The notes beneath the pieces were generated by a model that was given only the letters and a program-made list of their open reading frames with translations, was not told where the DNA came from and ran no database searches. Below are positions 36,852 to 62,751 of a stretch of DNA of 64,000 nt, one piece after another. The DNA comes from Treponema sp. (GTDB lineage Bacteria; Spirochaetota; Spirochaetia; Treponematales; Treponemataceae), in NCBI GenBank assembly GCA_017934745.1, contig JAGBIY010000015.1:37312-101311 (forward strand), given 5' to 3'. Every line of letters starts with the position of its first letter. Positions within the stretch are counted from its first letter, which is position 1. The position numbers and the translations under genes were made by a program.

Positions 36852-39077
36852 ATGGCTAGCGAAGAAAATGTTTTGACAATCGAAGACGGCGTTGTGACAG
36901 CGTGCAAAGAAGACGCGGAGAGAATTGTTATTCCTGCTGGTGTGACACAATTAGGCATTGGGTTTAGTGCGAGCGAAAAATTAAAAGAAGTTGTGTTTGA
37001 AGGCACGATGGCAGAATGGGAAAACATAGAGTACTCATACATAGTTTTTATTTACGGCGGTGTAAAATGTGTGAAGTGTGCTGATGGGGAAGTGAAAAAG
37101 AGTGTTTACATTGTCTCTGGTGATGCTGTGCAACTTTGCATAGACCGCAATGTGAAAAATGTTACGGTTGAGGGCGTGAAGAAAATCAATCCGATGGCGT
37201 TTTGGCATTCGGAAGTGCTTGAGCATTTGGTGATTGGAGAGGGCGTGACTGAAATCGGAGATAAAGCGTTTCTTCATTGCTCGTCGCTAAAGTCTGTCTC
37301 TCTTCCGTCTACGCTGAAAAAAATCGGAAAATATGCGTTCGACGAATGTTATTCTGTCGAGAAAATCGAGTCTGCTTCTCCTTTGTTCAAGTTCGATGAG
37401 GAAAAAAGCACGCTATATTACGTCCACCCCAAAAAAGAAAGGCAGCCAATTCTCTCGCTCAAAAAAGAACTGCACAAAGTTCCAGAGTCATTTTTGACAA
37501 TCGAAAACAGCGTTGTGACAAAATGCCACGAATCCGCTGTGAGCGTGGTTATCCCAGACGGTGTGACGGCAATCGGTGAAAATGCGTTTAATAAGTGCGA
37601 GTCGCTAAAATCTGTGGTGATACCAGAAAGCATGAGAGAAATCGGAAAGTGCGCGTTCCATTATTGCGAGGCTCTTGAGAGCGTGGTTATTCCAAAGGGA
37701 GTTACGGCAATCGGAAATGGTGCATTCGCTAATTGCTCAAGACTAAAAGAAGTTGTCATTCCTGAAGGCGTGACTGAAATCAGTTATTGCGCGTTCGAGA
37801 AATGTTCTGCGCTGGAGGAAGTGACAATCCCCGAAAGCGTTACGTCAATTGTCGCTGCCGCGTTCAATAACTGCTCATCGCTAAAATCGGTTGTGATACC
37901 AAACGGTGTGAAACAAATCGAATCTTGGACATTCAAGAATTGCGCTTCTCTTGAACAAGTGACAATTCCAGAAGGCGTGGTGCAAATCGGAATGGAGGCG
38001 TTCTGTCGCTGTTCATCGCTAAAATCGATTGTGCTTCCGAACAGTCTAACAGCAATCGGCGAGCAGGCGTTCGATGATTGCACTTCGCTTTCGTCTGTGA
38101 CTTTTGGCGATAAGATAACAGAAATCGCTCCTTTTTCGTTTATGAGGTGCGAGTCGCTCAAATCGATTGAGATTCCTTCCACCGTGAGCGAAATTGGAGT
38201 GGGTGTCTTTGCTGATTGCACAGCACTTTCTGGCATTGTAATTCCTGAGGGCGTGACGAAAATCGGCAAAAATGCGTTCTACAAATGCACGGCGCTTTCT
38301 TCAATTGAAATCCCTTCGACCATGGCGAAAATCGAAAAAGACGCCTTCGAGGGCTGTGAGGCTGTTGAAAAAATCGTGTCGAAATCCCCGATGTTCCCGT
38401 TCAACGAAAAAACGCGAAAACTCTACGCCGTAACGAAAACTACAAAGAAGGCTATTCTCTCGCTTGGAAAAGATATCGCAAAGCAAGCGAAAATCGATGA
38501 GGTGCAAAACGCTTCTGCGAGCGCTGTTCTTGGCTCGATACTTTCTGAGCACAAGGCAAAAAACGAGGTTGTTCGAGGCGAAAAGAACGCGAGTCTTCTC
38601 ATAAAGGCTTCTTTTGGTGGCATAGAGATTTTGCTTCTTGATTCCAAAGTGCAAAAGTGGATGAAGACGCTTCCTTCTTTGCTCGACCTTGCCGCAACAG
38701 GCGCAGACGCTTTTGCGCTCAAGAAGTTCGCTGACGAAAACGTCCTTGAGGACAAAAGCCGAAAGTATCTGACAATTTCAAAAAACGACAGTGTGTCGCG
38801 CAAGAAAAAATTGAAGCCTGTCTATCTCTTCATTCCAGATGGCGTTACATCAATCGAAGGAAGAACGTTCTCTTTTACCAAGACGCTCAAGTTCGCAGCC
38901 ATTCCTTCGACCGTTACATCAATCGGTGGAACTGCGTTCGAGGAATGCACCTTTCTCACAGAAATCGCTTTTGGCGGAACGGTTGCACAGTGGAACGCGG
39001 TAGAAAAAGGCAAGGGCTGGTGCGAAGGCATTGGCGCAAAGTGCGTGAAATGCTCTGACGGAGAAGTGGAACTGTAG
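36852..39077 (+). CDS. BspA-like leucine-rich-repeat protein, copy 2
   Basis: 741 residues, mostly LRR_5 repeats (residues about 8-520 and 645-741) of the form VVIPEGVTEISYCAFEKCSA. A non-repeat middle region (about residues 530-635) resembles that of the preceding gene. No signal peptide. The frame is open further upstream through the dispersed repeat, but MASEENVLTIEDGVV at 36852 starts the first repeat; an ATG at 36822 is possible and neither has a strong ribosome binding site. LRR_5 proteins commonly mediate protein-protein contacts; the partner is unknown. Confidence 0.85.
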   Translation: MASEENVLTIEDGVVTACKEDAERIVIPAGVTQLGIGFSASEKLKEVVFEGTMAEWENIEYSYIVFIYGGVKCVKCADGEVKKSVYIVSGDAVQLCIDRNVKNVTVEGVKKINPMAFWHSEVLEHLVIGEGVTEIGDKAFLHCSSLKSVSLPSTLKKIGKYAFDECYSVEKIESASPLFKFDEEKSTLYYVHPKKERQPILSLKKELHKVPESFLTIENSVVTKCHESAVSVVIPDGVTAIGENAFNKCESLKSVVIPESMREIGKCAFHYCEALESVVIPKGVTAIGNGAFANCSRLKEVVIPEGVTEISYCAFEKCSALEEVTIPESVTSIVAAAFNNCSSLKSVVIPNGVKQIESWTFKNCASLEQVTIPEGVVQIGMEAFCRCSSLKSIVLPNSLTAIGEQAFDDCTSLSSVTFGDKITEIAPFSFMRCESLKSIEIPSTVSEIGVGVFADCTALSGIVIPEGVTKIGKNAFYKCTALSSIEIPSTMAKIEKDAFEGCEAVEKIVSKSPMFPFNEKTRKLYAVTKTTKKAILSLGKDIAKQAKIDEVQNASASAVLGSILSEHKAKNEVVRGEKNASLLIKASFGGIEILLLDSKVQKWMKTLPSLLDLAATGADAFALKKFADENVLEDKSRKYLTISKNDSVSRKKKLKPVYLFIPDGVTSIEGRTFSFTKTLKFAAIPSTVTSIGGTAFEECTFLTEIAFGGTVAQWNAVEKGKGWCEGIGAKCVKCSDGEVEL

Positions 39078-55929: not shown

Positions 55930-56050
55930 ATTGAGTCCTAATCCTTGCTAGTTGGATGCAGCGCCGCCGAGAATCGCATGGGCGATTCTCGCGCATGGCT
56001 GCTTTTTGCTGATTGAGTCCTAATCATTGCTGTTTGGATGCAGCGCCGCC
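55930..56050. repeat. Hairpin repeat array, left part, module B copies
   Basis: Module B (ATTGAGTCCTAATC then TTGGATGCAGCGCCGCC) occurs at 55930-55968 and 56012-56050, 82 bases apart. Between them GAGAATCGC (55969-55977) and GCGATTCTC (55982-55990) form a perfect 9-base stem with a 4-base loop. Part of a non-coding 1.1-kb region that has no larger gene. Confidence 0.8.
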
Positions 56051-56060
56051 ACTCCACAAA

Positions 56061-56232
56061 TGCGCAAGAATTGCCTCGTAATTCTTGGCGAGGTTGACAT
56101 CCATGCGACAATATTTTTTCCAGCTGTACAACGGTCAACCTACCAATGCGCAAGAATTGCCTCGCAATTCTTGGCGAGGTTGACATCCATGTGGCAATAT
56201 TTTTTCCAGTTGTACAACGGTCAACCTTCCGA
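56061..56232. repeat. Two tandem 86-bp hairpin repeats (module A)
   Basis: Copies start at 56061 and 56147. Each begins TGCGCAAGAATTGC and contains CAAGAATTGC-CTC-GCAATTCTTG, a perfect 10-base stem in copy 2 with one change in copy 1. Each then has GGTTGAC and GTCAACC arms about 45 bases apart. Both strands are open for about 80 codons, but no ribosome binding site or family was recognised. Confidence 0.85.
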
Positions 56233-56364
56233 TAATCTAACCAGTTTCATCAAGAAACTGCGCGACCATAGGGACTCTCGCGAGTCCCGAAGGTGTTGGC
56301 GGTTGCTCTTCAATCTCTACCGAACGTTGTGAAACGTGCGGAATAAAGTTTTGGAGGGCGTGCA

Positions 56365-56433
56365 ATGATAGCGAAAATCATTTTGGTTTTGGCGATTGCC
56401 TGCTTCTTCTTGGCAGGCTATCCCGCTTGGTAA
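56365..56433 (+). CDS. 22-residue hydrophobic peptide, candidate type I toxin
   Basis: ATG at 56365 follows GGAGGG by 6 bases, a strong ribosome binding site. The peptide begins MIAKIILVLAIACFF and ends LAGYPAW: one predicted membrane segment with a single Lys near the N-terminus. Its size, hydrophobicity and the structured 3' region (hairpin at 56471-56501, terminator at 56519-56575) resemble type I toxin genes, whose mRNA is silenced by an antisense RNA. I cannot see the antisense promoter with confidence. It lies between two halves of a repeat array. Expression and toxicity are inferred. Confidence 0.5.
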   Translation: MIAKIILVLAIACFFLAGYPAW

Positions 56434-56470
56434 TTGCGCTCTCTAGCTGAAAAGTCCAGAGAGTAAAAAA

Positions 56471-56501
56471 TAACCGCCTAAGTCTTTCAACTTGGCGGTT
56501 A
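56471..56501 (+). promoter_or_regulatory. Hairpin downstream of the small peptide gene
   Basis: TAACCGCC pairs with GGCGGTTA, and AAGT with ACTT inside, leaving a 6-base loop and one bulge. No T-run follows directly. It may be part of the mRNA 3' region or of an antisense RNA. Confidence 0.55.
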
Positions 56502-56518
56502 ATCCGTACAAATGAAGA

Positions 56519-56575
56519 CCAACCGTAGCATTTGGAAATGTTGACGCATTTCCGTGGTTGCGCTTCTTTTTTCTA
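56519..56575 (+). terminator. Terminator of the small peptide transcript
   Basis: CAACC pairs with GGTTG outside and GGAAATG with CATTTCC inside, followed by CGCTTCTTTTTTCT. Confidence 0.65.
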
Positions 56576-56603
56576 TTATATCGACAATTCCCCGAAAAAT
56601 CCA

Positions 56604-56882
56604 TCAATTTGGCAATGCTTTTTCCAGCTGAACAACGGTCAACCTACAAATGCGCAAGAATTGCTCCGCAATTCTTGGCGACTGCTGCATCCAACTAGCA
56701 ATGCTTAGAACACATCCGGTTCCTAGCAGCGTTCCGATTCTTTGCGAGGTTGACATCCATGTAGCAATGTTTTTTTCCAGCTGGACAACGCTTCTCCACC
56801 CATGCGCAAGAATTGCCTCGCAATTCTTGGCGAGGTTGCCTAACATGTGGCAATGCCTTTCCAGCTGTAAAAAGGCAACCTA
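56604..56882. repeat. Hairpin repeat array, right part (modules A and inverted B)
   Basis: A half copy of module A (56604-56650) is followed by TGCGCAAGAATTGC starts at 56651 and 56803. Between them lies module B in inverted orientation (GCTGCATCCAACTAGCAA, from about 56683) and another GAGGTTGACATCCATG segment. Perfect or near-perfect CAAGAATTGC hairpins are kept in each copy. Nothing coding is recognised from 56882 to 57039 apart from an AT-rich stretch that may hold the next promoter. Confidence 0.8.
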
Positions 56883-57039
56883 CTTTTTAAACCACCGTTT
56901 TTTTTCATATTTCATCCAACTTCGCGCGTATCAGAAATTTTAACGCTGTTTAAGAAAAATCACAATGTTCAATTTAATCGGTGGTATTTTTTGCACACTT
57001 CCTCCTCGCGCTCCTACACAAGAAGAAGGGGTATGACTG

Positions 57040-59895
57040 ATGTTCAACTCAAAGAAAATGTTTTTTGTTTTGTCGATTTTTGCGCTCTGCGTGGGCTTGT
57101 TCGCGCAGACTTCCGTTCCTGAGAAGAAGCTAGCAAAGACGCTGGAGAAGAACAAGGACGAGAATGCTGTTTTTGAATGCGAAATGGACTTGTCCAGGCT
57201 GGCGGTCAGTGAGAGCGGAGCCGTCTCGATTCCGCTCCTGTCGAAGAGCAAGGTCTCAATCGTTTCTGGAATGGACATGACGGACATTCGCGAGAGGATT
57301 TCGCATTCAAATCGCTCGACTTTCCCCGTCACGTTCGAGGCAAGAAGCGTCAAGCCGAACAGCTACGCGGTCACGAAAATCGGCGGAATCGAGAGCGTTT
57401 CCGAATACAAGGCAAGGCTTGCGAAAGAGGCGCAGTTGGCGGAGGAAAAGCGGATTGCCGAAGAGAAAAGGCGCGCCGAGGAAGAGAAAGCCCGCTGGGA
57501 GCGTGAGCGGCTCTCGAACCTCACAAAAATGCCGGTTCAAGTCGTGAACCAGGAGGTCATAAACCTTGCCGGCGCGGAGAGTGCGTGGCTTCCAGGGCAG
57601 ATTCAGGACAAGTTCAAGTCGAACCTGCAGGAATTCTTGGGAATGAAGACCGTCGTCGACTCGAAGTCGGAGGCTGCCCTCAAGAAACTGCAGGCCGAGA
57701 GCGAGAGCGCGGCGAGGGACGAGAGCACGGCGATAGAGTTCGGGAAAATCACCACGGCGAGCTTCGCGCTCTTCACGAAAATCCGAAAGACCGGCAAGGG
57801 CTACACAATCAGCGCGGACTTCACCGACCTGACCACGGGCGAGCAGATGGCGAGCGCGACGAGCAAGGAGTACAGCGAGGCCGAATACCTCTACGGCTCC
57901 ACTGGAGCGGTTGACGAAATCACGCTCTCCCTCGGAAACAAGCTCGGAATAAAAATCTCCGACCTCAACAAGAACCTCCTGGCAAGCGGCTCCGCCTCGT
58001 TCAGCGTGGACGAGCAGCTTGCGCTCGCGAAGCAGAACGAGGAGAACTTCAAGAAGATGATGGCGCAGTACGACGCCGACCTGCAGAAACTTTCCGTGTC
58101 GAACGACATCTCCGCAATCGAGAACAAGAAGAAAATCGAGGCGGAGAAGGCGCTTCTCGCGGAGAGGCAGAACGCGGAGAAAAAACGGCAGGCGGAGCTT
58201 TCCGAGCAGAAGAAGAGGGCGGAGGCGGACGCGAAACTTGAGGCGGAGCGAAGCATCGCGCTCAAAACCCAGCGCGACCAGATGGCGAAGGAAGCCGCCG
58301 CCAAAGCCGCCGAGGTGCGAAAGCTCAAGATGGCGAAGCAGGGCGTCCTGGGGCAAATCAACATCATCGAGAGCAAGAAGAAGGCGCTGGTCGAGATTCG
58401 GAACAGCGTGGAATCTCGTTCCCAGGAGTTGTACGCGCAGCTTGTAAAAGACCGTGAGAGCGAGGAGGAGAGAATCCGCGGGAAGAGCTACAGCACGGTG
58501 GAGCTTGAGTACGGCAAACCGACAGAGGCCGCGTTGGAGCGTCGCGAAAAGCAGGTAATCAAAAGCTACGAGGATTTGACGAACAAGTTCTTTTTGGATG
58601 CCGATGCGGTCAAGAAAAGCACGGCTTCCCAGGATACAGCCCTGCTCGCGGAAATCCGCGCCGACCAGAAGGCGTTGACGGCTTTGCGCACGGTGTCCTC
58701 GATGGGCGACGAACTCAAAGTGTCGTTCGGCGGCTACGAGGGCAGCGTGAACGGCTGGCGCGCGTATCTGTCGCTGTACTCCGACGGCGTTCTCTTGTAC
58801 AACGACAGTTTCATTGTCGACTATGCGACTTTGAGCGGCAAGAAAGCTCCGAACATGAAAACCGAGCTTGACGATGCGGTCATCGAAGACTACACGAACA
58901 ACGTGGACATGTATTCCTCCCTCCTCACCCGCGGCGACCCGATTGTCTACTTTGAGATTGATTACAACGTGACCGCCGAAACCGACGACAAGCCGAGCGA
59001 GTACACGTTCTCCTTCAACAAAGTCCGGGTGATAAACACTGTGAGCGGAAAGACCGTGCAGACGAGCGCGCTGGAAAAGACGCAGCCGAGGACAATGAAG
59101 CCGGAGTGGGATTTGCGGGAGATTGTGGGAGTTGTGGCGAGTGAGAAAGAAAATTTTGCAACGATAGAAAGATACATTGCAAAGGGTAATAACTTTGAGG
59201 AAGCAAAAAAAGTAGTTGCAAGGGATATTGAAGTCGCAAAAATTTTCGGCAAATCAAAGATGGTTGTCATGCCGAGGCAAGACTTCGAGGTGCTTAATAC
59301 GGAAGTGACGCAGAAAATGTATAGAGCTGTAATGGGCGAAAATCCGAGCAGTTTCAAAGGCGAGAATAACCCCGTGGAGAATGTCAGTTGGTACGATGCA
59401 ATTTTCTTCTGCAACAAGCTGAGTGAAAAATTCGGCTATGAGCCAGTATACGCAGTGAACGGAGAAACTGACGTAAGGAGATGGGGATATACGCCGCACA
59501 ATGACAAGTCGATTCAAGGAAAAATAGTGCAGAAAGGGTCGGCAAACGGCTTCAGGTTGCCGACGGAGGACGAATGGGAATATGCTGCGCAAGGCGGACA
59601 GAACTACAAGTATGCGGGAAGCGACAACATTGACGAGGTGGGATGGTATGGTGGTAACAGCGGAAGAACGACACACCCCGTGGCGCAGAAGAAGGCGAAC
59701 GGCTACGGACTCTACGACATGAGCGGAAATGTTTTTGAATGGTCCGGTGCCGCTTCCGGCTCCAACCGCGTCGCTCGCGGCGGTTCTTTGATCCTCGATG
59801 CGGACTTCTGCGCCGTGTCTATCCGGGACTACTACAACCCGGACGGCCGCTACTACTACCTTGGTTTCCGTGTTGTGCGTTCCAGTTCTAACTAA
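57040..59895 (+). CDS. Exported FGE-sulfatase-fold protein with diversity-generating-retroelement variable region
   Basis: 951 residues. A signal peptide (1-22) is followed by charged coiled coil (about 127-158) and a CsgG/LpoB-like domain (about 164-310: MPVQVVNQEVINLAG, FALFTKIRKTGKGYTISADF). Then come a long Lys/Glu/Ala coiled coil (about 330-500) and an unassigned domain (about 550-720). An FGE-sulfatase (C-type-lectin-like) domain runs from about 741 (EVLNTEVTQKMYRAVMGENP, GFRLPTEDEWEYAAQGG, GYGLYDMSGNVFEWSG) to the end. The final segment, residues 918-940, has the residue pattern of a retroelement variable region, ending in YYYLGFRVVRS. AGGGG lies before the ATG. Probably a surface or periplasmic ligand-binding protein. 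Confidence 0.85.
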   Translation: MFNSKKMFFVLSIFALCVGLFAQTSVPEKKLAKTLEKNKDENAVFECEMDLSRLAVSESGAVSIPLLSKSKVSIVSGMDMTDIRERISHSNRSTFPVTFEARSVKPNSYAVTKIGGIESVSEYKARLAKEAQLAEEKRIAEEKRRAEEEKARWERERLSNLTKMPVQVVNQEVINLAGAESAWLPGQIQDKFKSNLQEFLGMKTVVDSKSEAALKKLQAESESAARDESTAIEFGKITTASFALFTKIRKTGKGYTISADFTDLTTGEQMASATSKEYSEAEYLYGSTGAVDEITLSLGNKLGIKISDLNKNLLASGSASFSVDEQLALAKQNEENFKKMMAQYDADLQKLSVSNDISAIENKKKIEAEKALLAERQNAEKKRQAELSEQKKRAEADAKLEAERSIALKTQRDQMAKEAAAKAAEVRKLKMAKQGVLGQINIIESKKKALVEIRNSVESRSQELYAQLVKDRESEEERIRGKSYSTVELEYGKPTEAALERREKQVIKSYEDLTNKFFLDADAVKKSTASQDTALLAEIRADQKALTALRTVSSMGDELKVSFGGYEGSVNGWRAYLSLYSDGVLLYNDSFIVDYATLSGKKAPNMKTELDDAVIEDYTNNVDMYSSLLTRGDPIVYFEIDYNVTAETDDKPSEYTFSFNKVRVINTVSGKTVQTSALEKTQPRTMKPEWDLREIVGVVASEKENFATIERYIAKGNNFEEAKKVVARDIEVAKIFGKSKMVVMPRQDFEVLNTEVTQKMYRAVMGENPSSFKGENNPVENVSWYDAIFFCNKLSEKFGYEPVYAVNGETDVRRWGYTPHNDKSIQGKIVQKGSANGFRLPTEDEWEYAAQGGQNYKYAGSDNIDEVGWYGGNSGRTTHPVAQKKANGYGLYDMSGNVFEWSGAASGSNRVARGGSLILDADFCAVSIRDYYNPDGRYYYLGFRVVRSSSN
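59776..59889 (+). other. Candidate diversity-generating-retroelement variable repeat
   Basis: Codons between an invariant RGGS and LGFRVVRS are those expected from AAC or AAT codons after random change of A: ATC, CTC, GAT, GAC, TTC, ATC, GAC, TAC, TAC, AAC, GAC, GGC, TAC, TAC, TAC, each keeping C or T in third place. Invariant codons (TGC, CGG, CCG, CGC) lie between them. This is how Treponema variable proteins look after adenine-specific mutagenic retrohoming. The template repeat and reverse transcriptase are not in the window. Confidence 0.75.
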
Positions 59896-59903
59896 GCAAA
59901 AAA

Positions 59904-59951
59904 ACGGTTGCTTTAAAGAGACCGCTTAGACGGTCGAAAGAAAGCAACCGT
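59904..59951 (+). promoter_or_regulatory. Nested hairpin just after the variable region
   Basis: Outer arms ACGGTTGCTTT (59904-59914) and AAAGCAACCGT (59941-59951) are perfect over 11 bases; inside, GACCG (59920-59924) and CGGTC (59931-59935) enclose a 6-base loop. It begins 8 bases after the stop codon. Hairpins at this place are needed for target recognition in the Bordetella phage retroelement; alternatively it is a weak transcription terminator, though no T-run follows. Confidence 0.65.
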
Positions 59952-60009
59952 AATAACCGCGCGTAGCACCCTAGTAGTCGCTGTGTAAGGCAGGGCTTGG
60001 GAAGTCAAG

Positions 60010-60048
60010 TGCGGAAGCACGGCCGCGGCGACACCGTAGGCTTCCGCA
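60010..60048. promoter_or_regulatory. GC-rich hairpin upstream of the three-gene module
   Basis: TGCGGAAGC pairs with GCTTCCGCA, and ACGG with CCGT inside. The segment 59952-60103 contains no gene. The hairpin may end the preceding transcript or mark a module border. Confidence 0.5.
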
Positions 60049-60103
60049 TTGTTCGCACCATTGAGTCAAAATAACCATTGATAAATTGAAGGAGAAAAAG
60101 ATT

Positions 60104-60586
60104 ATGAAAGAAGCAAAGGTTTTGTATATTGCTGGAAATGAGAGGGCTGGAAAAACGCCTACCTGCAAAAATATCAACAAAATGTTGCAGGCTCATGAAT
60201 ATCAGCAAAAAGGCGATAAAAAGGACTTGTTTAGTGGCGATTATGCTATCCACTTGGTAAAGGATAAAACACATGTGATAATTTGTACTGCATCCGATTC
60301 AAATACAGTAATTGGGAACTTTATAGAGTTTCTAAAGAAAATAGCTGAGTGTATAGGTGATGACTGTGTTTTGGTGCTGATTCTGGCTATGCGCAATGAA
60401 GGCGATCGTAAGCGTGATTTGTTCGAGGAAGAAATAAACAAAATCGTTTCAATCAAGGAAAAGTTGGAATTTCCTTTGGCAAGAGTGAGTGATAGAGCAG
60501 ATTCGACAGTTCATGATTGGTATCGTAAATCTGTCGATGCAATTATCACGCATGTTTTAGGTGGAAAGCCTTTTAATTTGGTTTAG
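60104..60586 (+). CDS. Small P-loop NTPase-like protein
   Basis: 160 residues. A Walker A motif GNERAGKT is at residues 11-18, after the first beta strand (AKVLYIA). The rest fits a compact alpha/beta fold (HVIICTASDSNTVIGNFIEF, CVLVLILAMRNEGDR), but no DxxG or NKxD of GTPases is clear. I do not recognise the family. AAGGAG lies 7 bases before the ATG at 60104. It starts an AT-rich group of three genes on the same strand whose composition differs from the flanking envelope genes. A signalling or nucleic-acid role, possibly defence, is speculative. Confidence 0.75.
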   Translation: MKEAKVLYIAGNERAGKTPTCKNINKMLQAHEYQQKGDKKDLFSGDYAIHLVKDKTHVIICTASDSNTVIGNFIEFLKKIAECIGDDCVLVLILAMRNEGDRKRDLFEEEINKIVSIKEKLEFPLARVSDRADSTVHDWYRKSVDAIITHVLGGKPFNLV

Positions 60587-60651
60587 GTCTTGTAAAAGTG
60601 GTTTTCTCATTTATGAGAAAATATTGTGATAATTTTTTAGGAGTCGTAATT

Positions 60652-61134
60652 ATGAAAGAAATAAAAGCGTCAATCAGCTGTTCTCAAAATTCAGATAATT
60701 CCAATGCTGATATTTCATTGACAAGTCATGAAGGTTGTTCCGATTTGTCTGTAGGTGCTACCGTGAAATCTGAAAATGAAAGTGGAGGAGAGAAAAAGAA
60801 AACTCAAGAGGTGGGAGCAGAAGGAAATAATGCTGTGCCAAATATTAAGTTTTCTCCAGTTTTGTCCTTTGTAGTTGTGGCCTCCTTCTCACTTTTAGTT
60901 GGTGTTGGAGCATATTTGATTATGAAACCTATTCCTGATGTTGAGCCTAATGAAACTTATATTTCTTGTATTGCAAAAGTAGCTATTTGCTTTGCTTCTA
61001 CAATAGCTGCATTTTTACTTTCGGTAAAAGCTACAGCATCGTTTTTTAAGTTGGAACTTCTAAAGGGCATAATAAACTCGTCTACAAGCCACGAGTTAAA
61101 AAAACTGTACTGTGACACATTGGTGGAGATTTGA
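60652..61134 (+). CDS. Small two-transmembrane protein, unknown function
   Basis: 160 residues. A hydrophilic N-terminal half, rich in Ser, Asn and Glu, is followed by two membrane segments (LSFVVVASFSLLVGVGAYLI and VAICFASTIAAFLLSVKA) and a short helical tail. TAGGAG lies 8 bases before the ATG at 60652. Three bases separate its stop from the next start. No family recognised. Confidence 0.7.
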   Translation: MKEIKASISCSQNSDNSNADISLTSHEGCSDLSVGATVKSENESGGEKKKTQEVGAEGNNAVPNIKFSPVLSFVVVASFSLLVGVGAYLIMKPIPDVEPNETYISCIAKVAICFASTIAAFLLSVKATASFFKLELLKGIINSSTSHELKKLYCDTLVEI

Positions 61135-61136
61135 CG

Positions 61137-61730
61137 ATGGAATTCATAAAAGCCATTTGTACTTGGAAAGATTCTTTTTTCACTTCCGATTGCGTATCAA
61201 TTGTTATCGCAATTTTTACTTTGGTAGTTACAATCAGCATTCCCGTTCAGATAATGAAATTTCAAAGATACTTGAGCCTCATGCCTATTTATATGGGATT
61301 TGATGTTGCTAATGCGTTCATGAGTGTAATTAATTTTTTCCATGACGACTGCGACTGTGATGTTGGTAGAATTCCTGAAGAATATAAAAAGCGATTCAAA
61401 TATGATTTCGACGAAAAGAACAATGTTCCTTTGGAGAAAATCCTTCATTATCAGAGAAGGCTTCTCAATGATTATTTCTTTGAACTTGAGTCTTGCAGAA
61501 AGTCTAGTTGGATTTTACGAAGAAAGATTGAGAAAGAATGGACCTCAAGTGAAGCGTGGGTAGTTAAGATTCTAATTTTTATGAATGCTGCCGTAGACAA
61601 TGATCCAGAACTTTTCAAGAACATAAGCGGCATCAAGCATGAGCGATTGCCAAAAATAAGAGGCTTGAACAAGTATCTCAAAAAATTTTATGACGACTTG
61701 AGCAATGCTAAACGTTGGATGCAGTCATGA
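61137..61730 (+). CDS. Membrane-anchored helical protein, unknown function
   Basis: 197 residues. One clear membrane segment near the N-terminus (CVSIVIAIFTLVVTISIPVQ) and a long, charged, helical C-terminal domain (HYQRRLLNDYFFELESCRKS, SSEAWVVKILIFMNAAVDN). The layout recalls small membrane-tethered effector or sensor proteins, but no family is recognised. GGAG lies 8 bases before the ATG. Probably cotranscribed with the two genes before it. Confidence 0.7.
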   Translation: MEFIKAICTWKDSFFTSDCVSIVIAIFTLVVTISIPVQIMKFQRYLSLMPIYMGFDVANAFMSVINFFHDDCDCDVGRIPEEYKKRFKYDFDEKNNVPLEKILHYQRRLLNDYFFELESCRKSSWILRRKIEKEWTSSEAWVVKILIFMNAAVDNDPELFKNISGIKHERLPKIRGLNKYLKKFYDDLSNAKRWMQS

Positions 61731-61746
61731 CTTCGGAGTTCGCAAA

Positions 61747-62751
61747 ATGAAACCAAAAATTTTCCTCTCAATCTCTCTTCTCCTTCTCTCGGCGCTCTCC
61801 CTCCTCTCCGCCAAGCCCAAGGAACCCGCGTGGCTATCCGACTACCGCGCGGTCTACCCCGACACCGCCTACATCGCGCAGAAAGCGACTGCGGACAAGG
61901 CGGAGCGGGCGCGCACCGAGGCCGTCGCGCAGATTGCTAGGTACTTCAAGACGAGCGTGAGCGCGAACCTCAAGACCAGCATGAAGTCGGTCGCAAGCGG
62001 TGAAACTGTCTCGGAGGAGACGACGGTCGAAAACGACGTCTCCCTCTCAAGCGACGTGAGCCTCTTCGCTGTGGAGACGACAGAGCCGTACTACCTCAAG
62101 AAAGAGAAGAAGTGGCACTGCGTTGCATTCATCGAGCGGGCGAAGGCGTGGGAGCAGTACCAGCCGACAGTGGAGGGTGCGAAGACGGAATTCTATTCGA
62201 TGAAGAAGAACGCTGACGAGGAAAGCGACCCGTTTGAGAAATGCGCTCTGCTCTCGAAGGCGTGGGAAAGCGGAAAAGTCCTCCTTGAAAAACTGGAGTA
62301 CGCCCGGATATTGGACGCGAAAAAGGAAGCCGCCTATGAAGACGACCGCAAGACCGCGAGCGGAATGCCGGGTGAGATTGCGAAGGAGAAGGAGAAATGC
62401 ACGGTCTACATTTCCGTCTCTGGCGACTACGGCTCGAACGTCTCCTCGGCATTGGCGAAAACCCTCTCAAGAAACGGCCTAAAAATCGCAAAGAACGAAT
62501 CGGAAGCCTCATACATCGCAAGCGCGGCAATCGAAGACAACGCGGTCGGAAGCGAGCCTGTCTCAATTTATCCGAGCCTGGAATTCAAAATCGAGAGCAA
62601 GGCCGGAAAGACAGTCTGCTCGTCAGAGGTGAAAATGGAGTCGAAGACCGTCTCCTACACGCTCGATAACGCCCGGAAAAAGGCGTACCCGATTTTGGCG
62701 AGCGAACTCGACAAGGCGGTTTCGGAAGAATTGAACAAAAAATTCAAATAA
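61747..62751 (+). CDS. Exported envelope protein, LPP20/lipoprotein-assembly-like
   Basis: 334 residues. A signal peptide (1-22, LLSALSLLSAKP) is followed by PAWLSDYRAVYPDTAYIAQ and an ATADKAERARTEAVAQIARY helix, the pattern of LPP20-type and related envelope proteins. The C-terminal half (about 225-334) alternates strands and helices (CTVYISVSGDYGSNVSSALA, then ASYIASAAIEDN), as in LpoB/CsgG-like domains. CGGAG lies 8 bases upstream of the ATG at 61747. GC-rich codon use matches the variable protein upstream rather than the AT-rich module between them. Likely part of an envelope assembly with its neighbours. Confidence 0.75.
   Translation: MKPKIFLSISLLLLSALSLLSAKPKEPAWLSDYRAVYPDTAYIAQKATADKAERARTEAVAQIARYFKTSVSANLKTSMKSVASGETVSEETTVENDVSLSSDVSLFAVETTEPYYLKKEKKWHCVAFIERAKAWEQYQPTVEGAKTEFYSMKKNADEESDPFEKCALLSKAWESGKVLLEKLEYARILDAKKEAAYEDDRKTASGMPGEIAKEKEKCTVYISVSGDYGSNVSSALAKTLSRNGLKIAKNESEASYIASAAIEDNAVGSEPVSIYPSLEFKIESKAGKTVCSSEVKMESKTVSYTLDNARKKAYPILASELDKAVSEELNKKFK

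Follow-up and report, generated by a model that had tools for sequence, protein, structure and literature searches.

Systems comparable to the locus described here are known from Treponema denticola, in which isolates have been reported that carry targets of diversity-generating retroelements (DGRs) yet neither a reverse transcriptase (RT) nor a template repeat (TR), and which the accessible part of that report reads as leftovers (PMC4891356); an orphan target as such was therefore already known. For the DGR of Bordetella phage BPP-1, the accessible text reports that a transplanted IMH and hairpin suffice to retarget a foreign gene (PMC3240598). We analysed a 64,000-nucleotide stretch of a Treponema sp. 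genome (the window, meaning this whole stretch), in which a first-pass annotation had placed a DGR variable region (VR) at 59776–59889. Our analysis confirms this observation as a genuine DGR variable region, on the evidence of adenine-restricted differences between copies, homologues accompanied by a TR and an RT, a TvpA-like FGE domain and a hairpin behind the stop codon. The target gene and its domain are as follows.

57040–59895, forward strand: target gene, 951 aa, with an N-terminal platform region and an FGE end (open reading frame, homologues, alignment).
59302–59880, forward strand: FGE-sulfatase domain, C-type-lectin-like, aa 755–947 (PF03781, E 2.7e-30; 2y3c, E 1.7e-41).

The open reading frame closes with RGGS...LGFRVVRSSSN, as had been described, and the FGE-sulfatase fold assigned to its end is borne out by the PF03781 match across aa 755–947. 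Treponema denticola variable protein 1 (PDB 2y3c, E 1.7e-41) is the best solved-structure match of this end, and the VR accordingly sits at the C-terminal end of an FGE-fold protein. The platform region, about aa 1–717, is conserved in the alignment and gave neither a significant family in the profile search nor a significant PDB match; the CsgG/LpoB-like label it had been given proved weak, since the LpoB profile reaches just E 0.78, below its curated cut-off, and E 0.0043, still below cut-off, in one homologue (L128). Homologues of the first 753 aa occur in 85 of the 201 genomes of the genus set, the window's own genome (G000) included in both figures, and among named records the gene's closest relative is found in an uncultured Treponema MAG (CAMHLH010000239.1). 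In two loci (L123:502-3162 and L124:571-3165), the same platform bears BspA-type leucine-rich repeats (LRR_5) and no FGE end, and further homologues combine it with ends of no assigned family. Judging by its N-terminal sequence, the protein would be exported, and it may be displayed at the surface and bind a ligand. Repeats were also seen elsewhere in the window: the gap that precedes the target gene holds four copies of a ~100-nt repeat (56012–56854), and nine copies of a 70-nt repeat, spaced mostly by 69 nt or multiples, lie at 37228–38305 in what looks like a repeat protein.

Within the gene end, two parts of the VR can be told apart.

59764–59859, forward strand: variable codons of the VR (A-restricted differences between copies).
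59860–59892, forward strand: nearly invariant VR end, a candidate IMH-like stretch by its presumed function, identical or nearly so in the window and in contigs C193 and C42 of the congener G047.

A second copy of this end in the same genome, on contig C59, matches the window at 78%; over 37 codons, 23 are identical, one differs synonymously and 13 change the amino acid. Eleven of these 13 are NNC codons altered in positions 1–2, the other two being the codon at 59773 and TTG/TGG at 59788. The original explanation of the variable codons by changed adenines does not account for TTG at 59788; the VR lies where it was placed, except that its variable stretch begins a little earlier, with codons 59764 and 59773 also varying between copies. 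Closer copies of the window end are found in G047, on C193 (86%) and C42 (82%), and a search with this end matched 114 of the 201 genomes, many of the matches spanning just the 44 bases that code for YGLYDMSGNV. Adenine columns were marked with an all-AAC repeat of G047 (C136:5013-5149), a congener's sequence taken in place of an own TR for the comparison. By this marking, the window and C193 differ at 14 of 34 A columns and at 5 of 103 others (Fisher p 1.5e-6), and all six pairs among four copies show the bias, with p between 9.2e-9 and 3.4e-5, so that the anticipated A-biased variation is present as differences between copies at adenines defined by the G047 repeat. For three of the five non-A columns (59774, 59812 and 59842), a different template may have adenine, given that A stands there in C193 or in a partial copy beside it. 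A third VR-like end in the genome, on contig C24, shows a weaker bias (17 of 34 A columns against 21 of 101 others, p 0.0015). The codons between the variable ones are identical to the third base, except for one synonymous difference against C59 and one against C193. We also considered the all-AAC repeat as the template of the window VR itself and rejected it: the two differ at 20 of 34 A columns and also at 17 of 103 others.

Homologues of the N-terminal 753 aa lie within 8 kb of an RT in four genomes (G001, G021, G160 and G177). In three of these congeners a TR could be paired with the end of the homologue itself, the differences falling at A in 21/21 (G001), 22/22 (G177) and 17/18 (G021) cases; in G160, the TR/VR pair that was found (16/17 at A) lies in a different gene and not in the platform homologue. 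Across loci, our TR/VR scan returned pairs in 8 of 10 loci of a first set (none in L067 and L072), in 11 of 17 of a second and in none of four of a third, and in none of four controls, namely the window and three stretches of its own genome. The RTs of G001, G021 and G047 contain IGNLTSQ and YMDD, motifs that we take to be a mark of DGR RTs, and a 160-aa protein that matches HRDC (E 9.1e-6) is encoded ahead of the RT (PF00078) of G047.

Several loci of these congeners have features of their own. In G047, the all-AAC repeat of C136 forms the in-frame end of an FGE gene (L067:3683-5239), is followed by a TR-type 3' flank and lies ~0.7 kb before the RT; either target and template are fused here, or the assembly has collapsed. 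On C193 of the same genome (L074:4469-4542), half of a TR-like repeat lies between unrelated DNA in front and, behind it, the end of another protein that by eye looks like DUF1566. A homologue of 1198 aa in G138 (L267:3901-8062) matches the FGE part of the window protein twice; its locus has a TR/VR-like pair (7373 and 7973) with 22 of the 25 differences falling at A, and the search with the G047 RT had no match in this genome. By eye, a similar stretch, GGCAGG, some bases, then GTAATCC, stands behind the TRs of L066, L077, L256, L258 and L262 and behind L067 after 5160; it may belong to the template RNA.

Just downstream of the VR, the window carries a structured element.

59904–59951, forward strand: two-tier hairpin, 8 nt after the stop (folding z -5.5 and -3.8; covariance model 76.6 bits; covariation over eight loci).

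The stretch folds at -15.9 kcal/mol (z -5.5, or -3.8 on a 75-nt stretch) into an 11-bp outer stem, an internal loop, a 6-bp inner stem and a four-base loop ending in AG. To place this fold among congeners, 20 TR/VR pairs were available, of which L065, at a contig edge, was excluded before folding, leaving 19 pairs in which the ends of L070, L071 and L073 are non-FGE by sequence and the frame of L263 is doubtful; the 110 nt behind the VR stop fold with z <= -3 in 13 of these 19 loci, the matching place at the TR does so in one of 19, and a strong hairpin is absent from six of the 19 VR flanks. A covariance model built from four hairpin copies and run on 88 sequence sources, mostly FGE or RT loci, recovered eight distinct loci at E <= 1.1e-6 (the window, G047, G106, G041, G009, G101, G080 and G130), with weaker matches up to E 0.82, some of them the opposite strand of the same hairpins and two loci being listed twice. 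At all eight loci, the hairpin lies 6–12 nt past a stop codon that closes an FGE gene whose end is of the VR type. In the model-fitted alignment of the eight species, 97.8% of cells are standard pairs and 10 of 17 pairs are changed on both sides; the covariation score is reached by none of 500 shuffles, and sliding the pairing partner lowers the paired cells to 33–46%. A hand alignment of six hairpins has standard pairing in 100 of 101 cells, with changes on both sides in 7 of 17 pairs; both alignments lean towards the structure. Rfam returned nothing at gathering score over 57000–62000, the exact hairpin pattern had no match in viral_contigs, and the two-tier form was not found in the accessible portions of the open-licence literature on DGRs.

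The hairpin and the VR share their history with sequence outside this gene, in layers that extend beyond the stop codon.

59744–59967, forward strand: cassette (VR, stop and hairpin) common to the window and C193 of G047 (90.6% identity over 224 bp; 106 of 108 positions in 59860–59967).
59955–59967, forward strand: left arm of a second hairpin, cut at the cassette junction and complete in G106 and G047 (by eye).
59964–60074, forward strand: older layer, part of another post-VR element followed by a vestigial FGE end (93.8% to G180 from 59957).

By segment, the window and C193 agree at 27 of 29 positions, then at 70 of 87 (the VR) and then at 106 of 108, and one other gene, read as fliI and serving as the whole of the background estimate, is 73% identical between the two genomes. 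G047 is absent from the genomes that have the window's N-terminal region, and the same end therefore sits on two scaffolds; a third gene, in G106, is followed by the hairpin stretch at 93% identity across some 80 nt. The orthologue in G180 is 93–99% identical over 57040–59139, 61–85% in the FGE core and 60% in 59740–59889, has a different end and no hairpin, and resumes alignment at 93.8% from 59957. G047 (78% complete), G106 and G180 are drafts in which chimaeric contigs are possible. Further downstream, the vestigial FGE end at 60000–60074 reads ...VGFRIVRTIESK, with its stop at 60072–60074 (frame from G180 and by eye), and parts of this downstream post-VR element also occur in G087, in G112 and behind the genome's own C59. 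We read the window end as a product of successive exchanges of gene ends, in which the VR and hairpin (59744–59967) look to have been exchanged between species and genes. Retrohoming alone should not import a hairpin that lies outside the TR, which is why recombination is the process we infer. A phage or plasmid origin found no support, the cassette being unmatched in phage and plasmid collections; proteins related to the FGE end, at 33–45% identity, are encoded on ten viral contigs.

The machinery itself was sought in G000, a draft of 3.58 Mb in 73 contigs that is 95.9% complete. No RT was found there with PF00078 at E<=1, with the DGR-RT protein of G001 at E<=10 or with the RT of G047 at E<=0.001; PF00078 matches 17 of 59 genus genomes. 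A codon-set pattern compatible with a TR matched the window and C59 and nothing else in G000, and the TR of G047 with its flank detected three VR-like ends (window, C24, C59) and two weak short matches, and no TR. The near-copy template and the retroelement-type RT that the first-pass annotation expected elsewhere in the genome are thus both missing from this assembly, which holds just VR-like places; that annotation had named the joint lack of machinery and of A-biased variation as evidence against itself, and the former is what we see, whereas the bias is present. Because neither RT nor TR is found in a 95.9% complete assembly, an active DGR in this genome is not supported, and the target is here an orphan DGR target. 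An RT match (G047 RT, E<=0.001) is likewise missing from five of the eight hairpin genomes (G000, G009, G080, G101 and G130) and present in three, G047 itself and, more distantly, G106 and G041. The one unpaired inner-stem cell of the hairpin alignment is the window's; together with one non-A change in the VR it is compatible with, and no proof of, a frozen end, and the window VR would at present be inactive. Two further contigs of this genome, C57 and C34, open in FGE-gene sequence that is nearly the same in both before they part (L004 and L005, bases 1–250); the assembly may have broken there on repeated FGE genes.

Taken together, we consider it probable that the window holds an orphan DGR target whose VR (59764–59892) and hairpin arrived by recombination of a cassette, with no TR or RT in the assembly to rewrite it now. 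Under such a mechanism, cDNA made by an RT from a template RNA, with errors introduced at adenines, would take the place of the gene's 3' end. The invariant VR end and the hairpin that follows the VR would mark the site, and what is rewritten would be residues in the TvpA-like FGE domain that the platform protein carries. The VR and hairpin would have been written elsewhere or earlier, and would have reached this gene through recombination of the ~220 bp cassette, no TR or RT being left in the assembly for rewriting. The adenine-restricted differences, the covariation of the hairpin, the TR, VR and RT at homologues and the lack of TR and RT in the assembly are direct observations; points against the explanation as a whole are the lack of a known template for the window VR, the change outside A at TTG 59788, A columns that coincide with codons possibly varying in FGE ends for other reasons, a background divergence taken from a single gene, possibly chimaeric drafts and the six of 19 VR flanks that have no strong hairpin.

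An active DGR acting on this gene as a remote target, with its TR and RT in the small part of the genome that was not assembled or on a mobile element missing from the assembly, seems unlikely to us. Such a machine could hide in a 73-contig draft of 95.9% completeness in which two contigs begin in nearly identical FGE sequence, and remote targets are known in T. denticola according to the accessible part of that report (PMC4891356); yet RT and TR would both have had to escape several searches, five of eight hairpin genomes have no RT match, including G101 at 99% completeness, and the cassette is unmatched in phage and plasmid collections. Far less credible is an origin without any DGR, by which paralogous ends under diversifying selection or gene conversion would owe their adenine pattern to NNC codons at the surface. 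FGE genes are indeed numerous (18 PF03781 matches in G000) and swap parts, and the bias of contig C24 is the weaker one given above, but the third-base identity of the intervening codons, broken by one synonymous change against each of C59 and C193, and the adenine-only TR/VR pairs adjoining RTs in homologues of the same protein speak against this reading.

A separate question concerns the hairpin, which could be an ordinary shared transcription terminator and no landing signal of a DGR, a reading to which we give a small share of the probability. Its place just past a stop is typical of terminators, and six of 19 VR flanks have no strong fold; however, no T-run follows it, a terminator scan does not list 59904–59951, such a fold appears at just one of 19 TR sides, and all eight model loci lie behind VR-type FGE ends, an association that is not a genome-wide test because the 88 sources were chosen mostly for their FGE or RT genes. 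A wider proposal may be put forward tentatively, which we would still rate as doubtful: DGR landing cassettes, each a rewritten end with a two-tier hairpin, might move between species and scaffold genes independently of the RT and accumulate at preferred loci; cells that lack the machine would thereby gain ready-made diversified ends together with landing sites. If so, diversity generated in one lineage would be usable by another that has no machine, and targets without an RT would be explained otherwise than as leftovers of loss. Surveys restricted to the neighbourhoods of RT genes overlook VR ends of this kind, and a hairpin model that detects them without an RT would permit orphan and remote targets to be counted.

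An orphan target is in itself known; what sets this one apart is its platform scaffold, together with a covarying hairpin of two tiers and an end cassette shared across species. TvpA of T. denticola (variable protein 1, 2y3c, E 1.7e-41) and its paralogues resemble the window protein in having an FGE-fold end with a C-terminal VR, and the accessible part of the T. denticola report describes an accessory of the HRDC type, as at the related DGR of G047, and orphan and remote targets like that of the window (PMC4891356). The scaffold differs, the window target having a long N-terminal platform, and the two-tier hairpin and the cross-species cassette of VR and hairpin are found in the window and not in the accessible part of that report, from which the word hairpin is absent (PMC4891356). 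Nanoarchaeal DGRs share with the window a hairpin near the end of the VR and are unlike it in having GRA three-base loops and a hairpin within the target gene, as far as the accessible text describes them (PMC4372165). The DGR of BPP-1, in the accessible part of its description, resembles the window in that an inverted repeat with a four-base loop closely follows the VR (PMC3240598); its type is a single GC-rich stem of 7–10 bp with a GRNA loop (PMC3240598), whereas the window hairpin stacks an 11-bp outer stem, an internal loop and a 6-bp inner stem beneath a loop that ends in AG.
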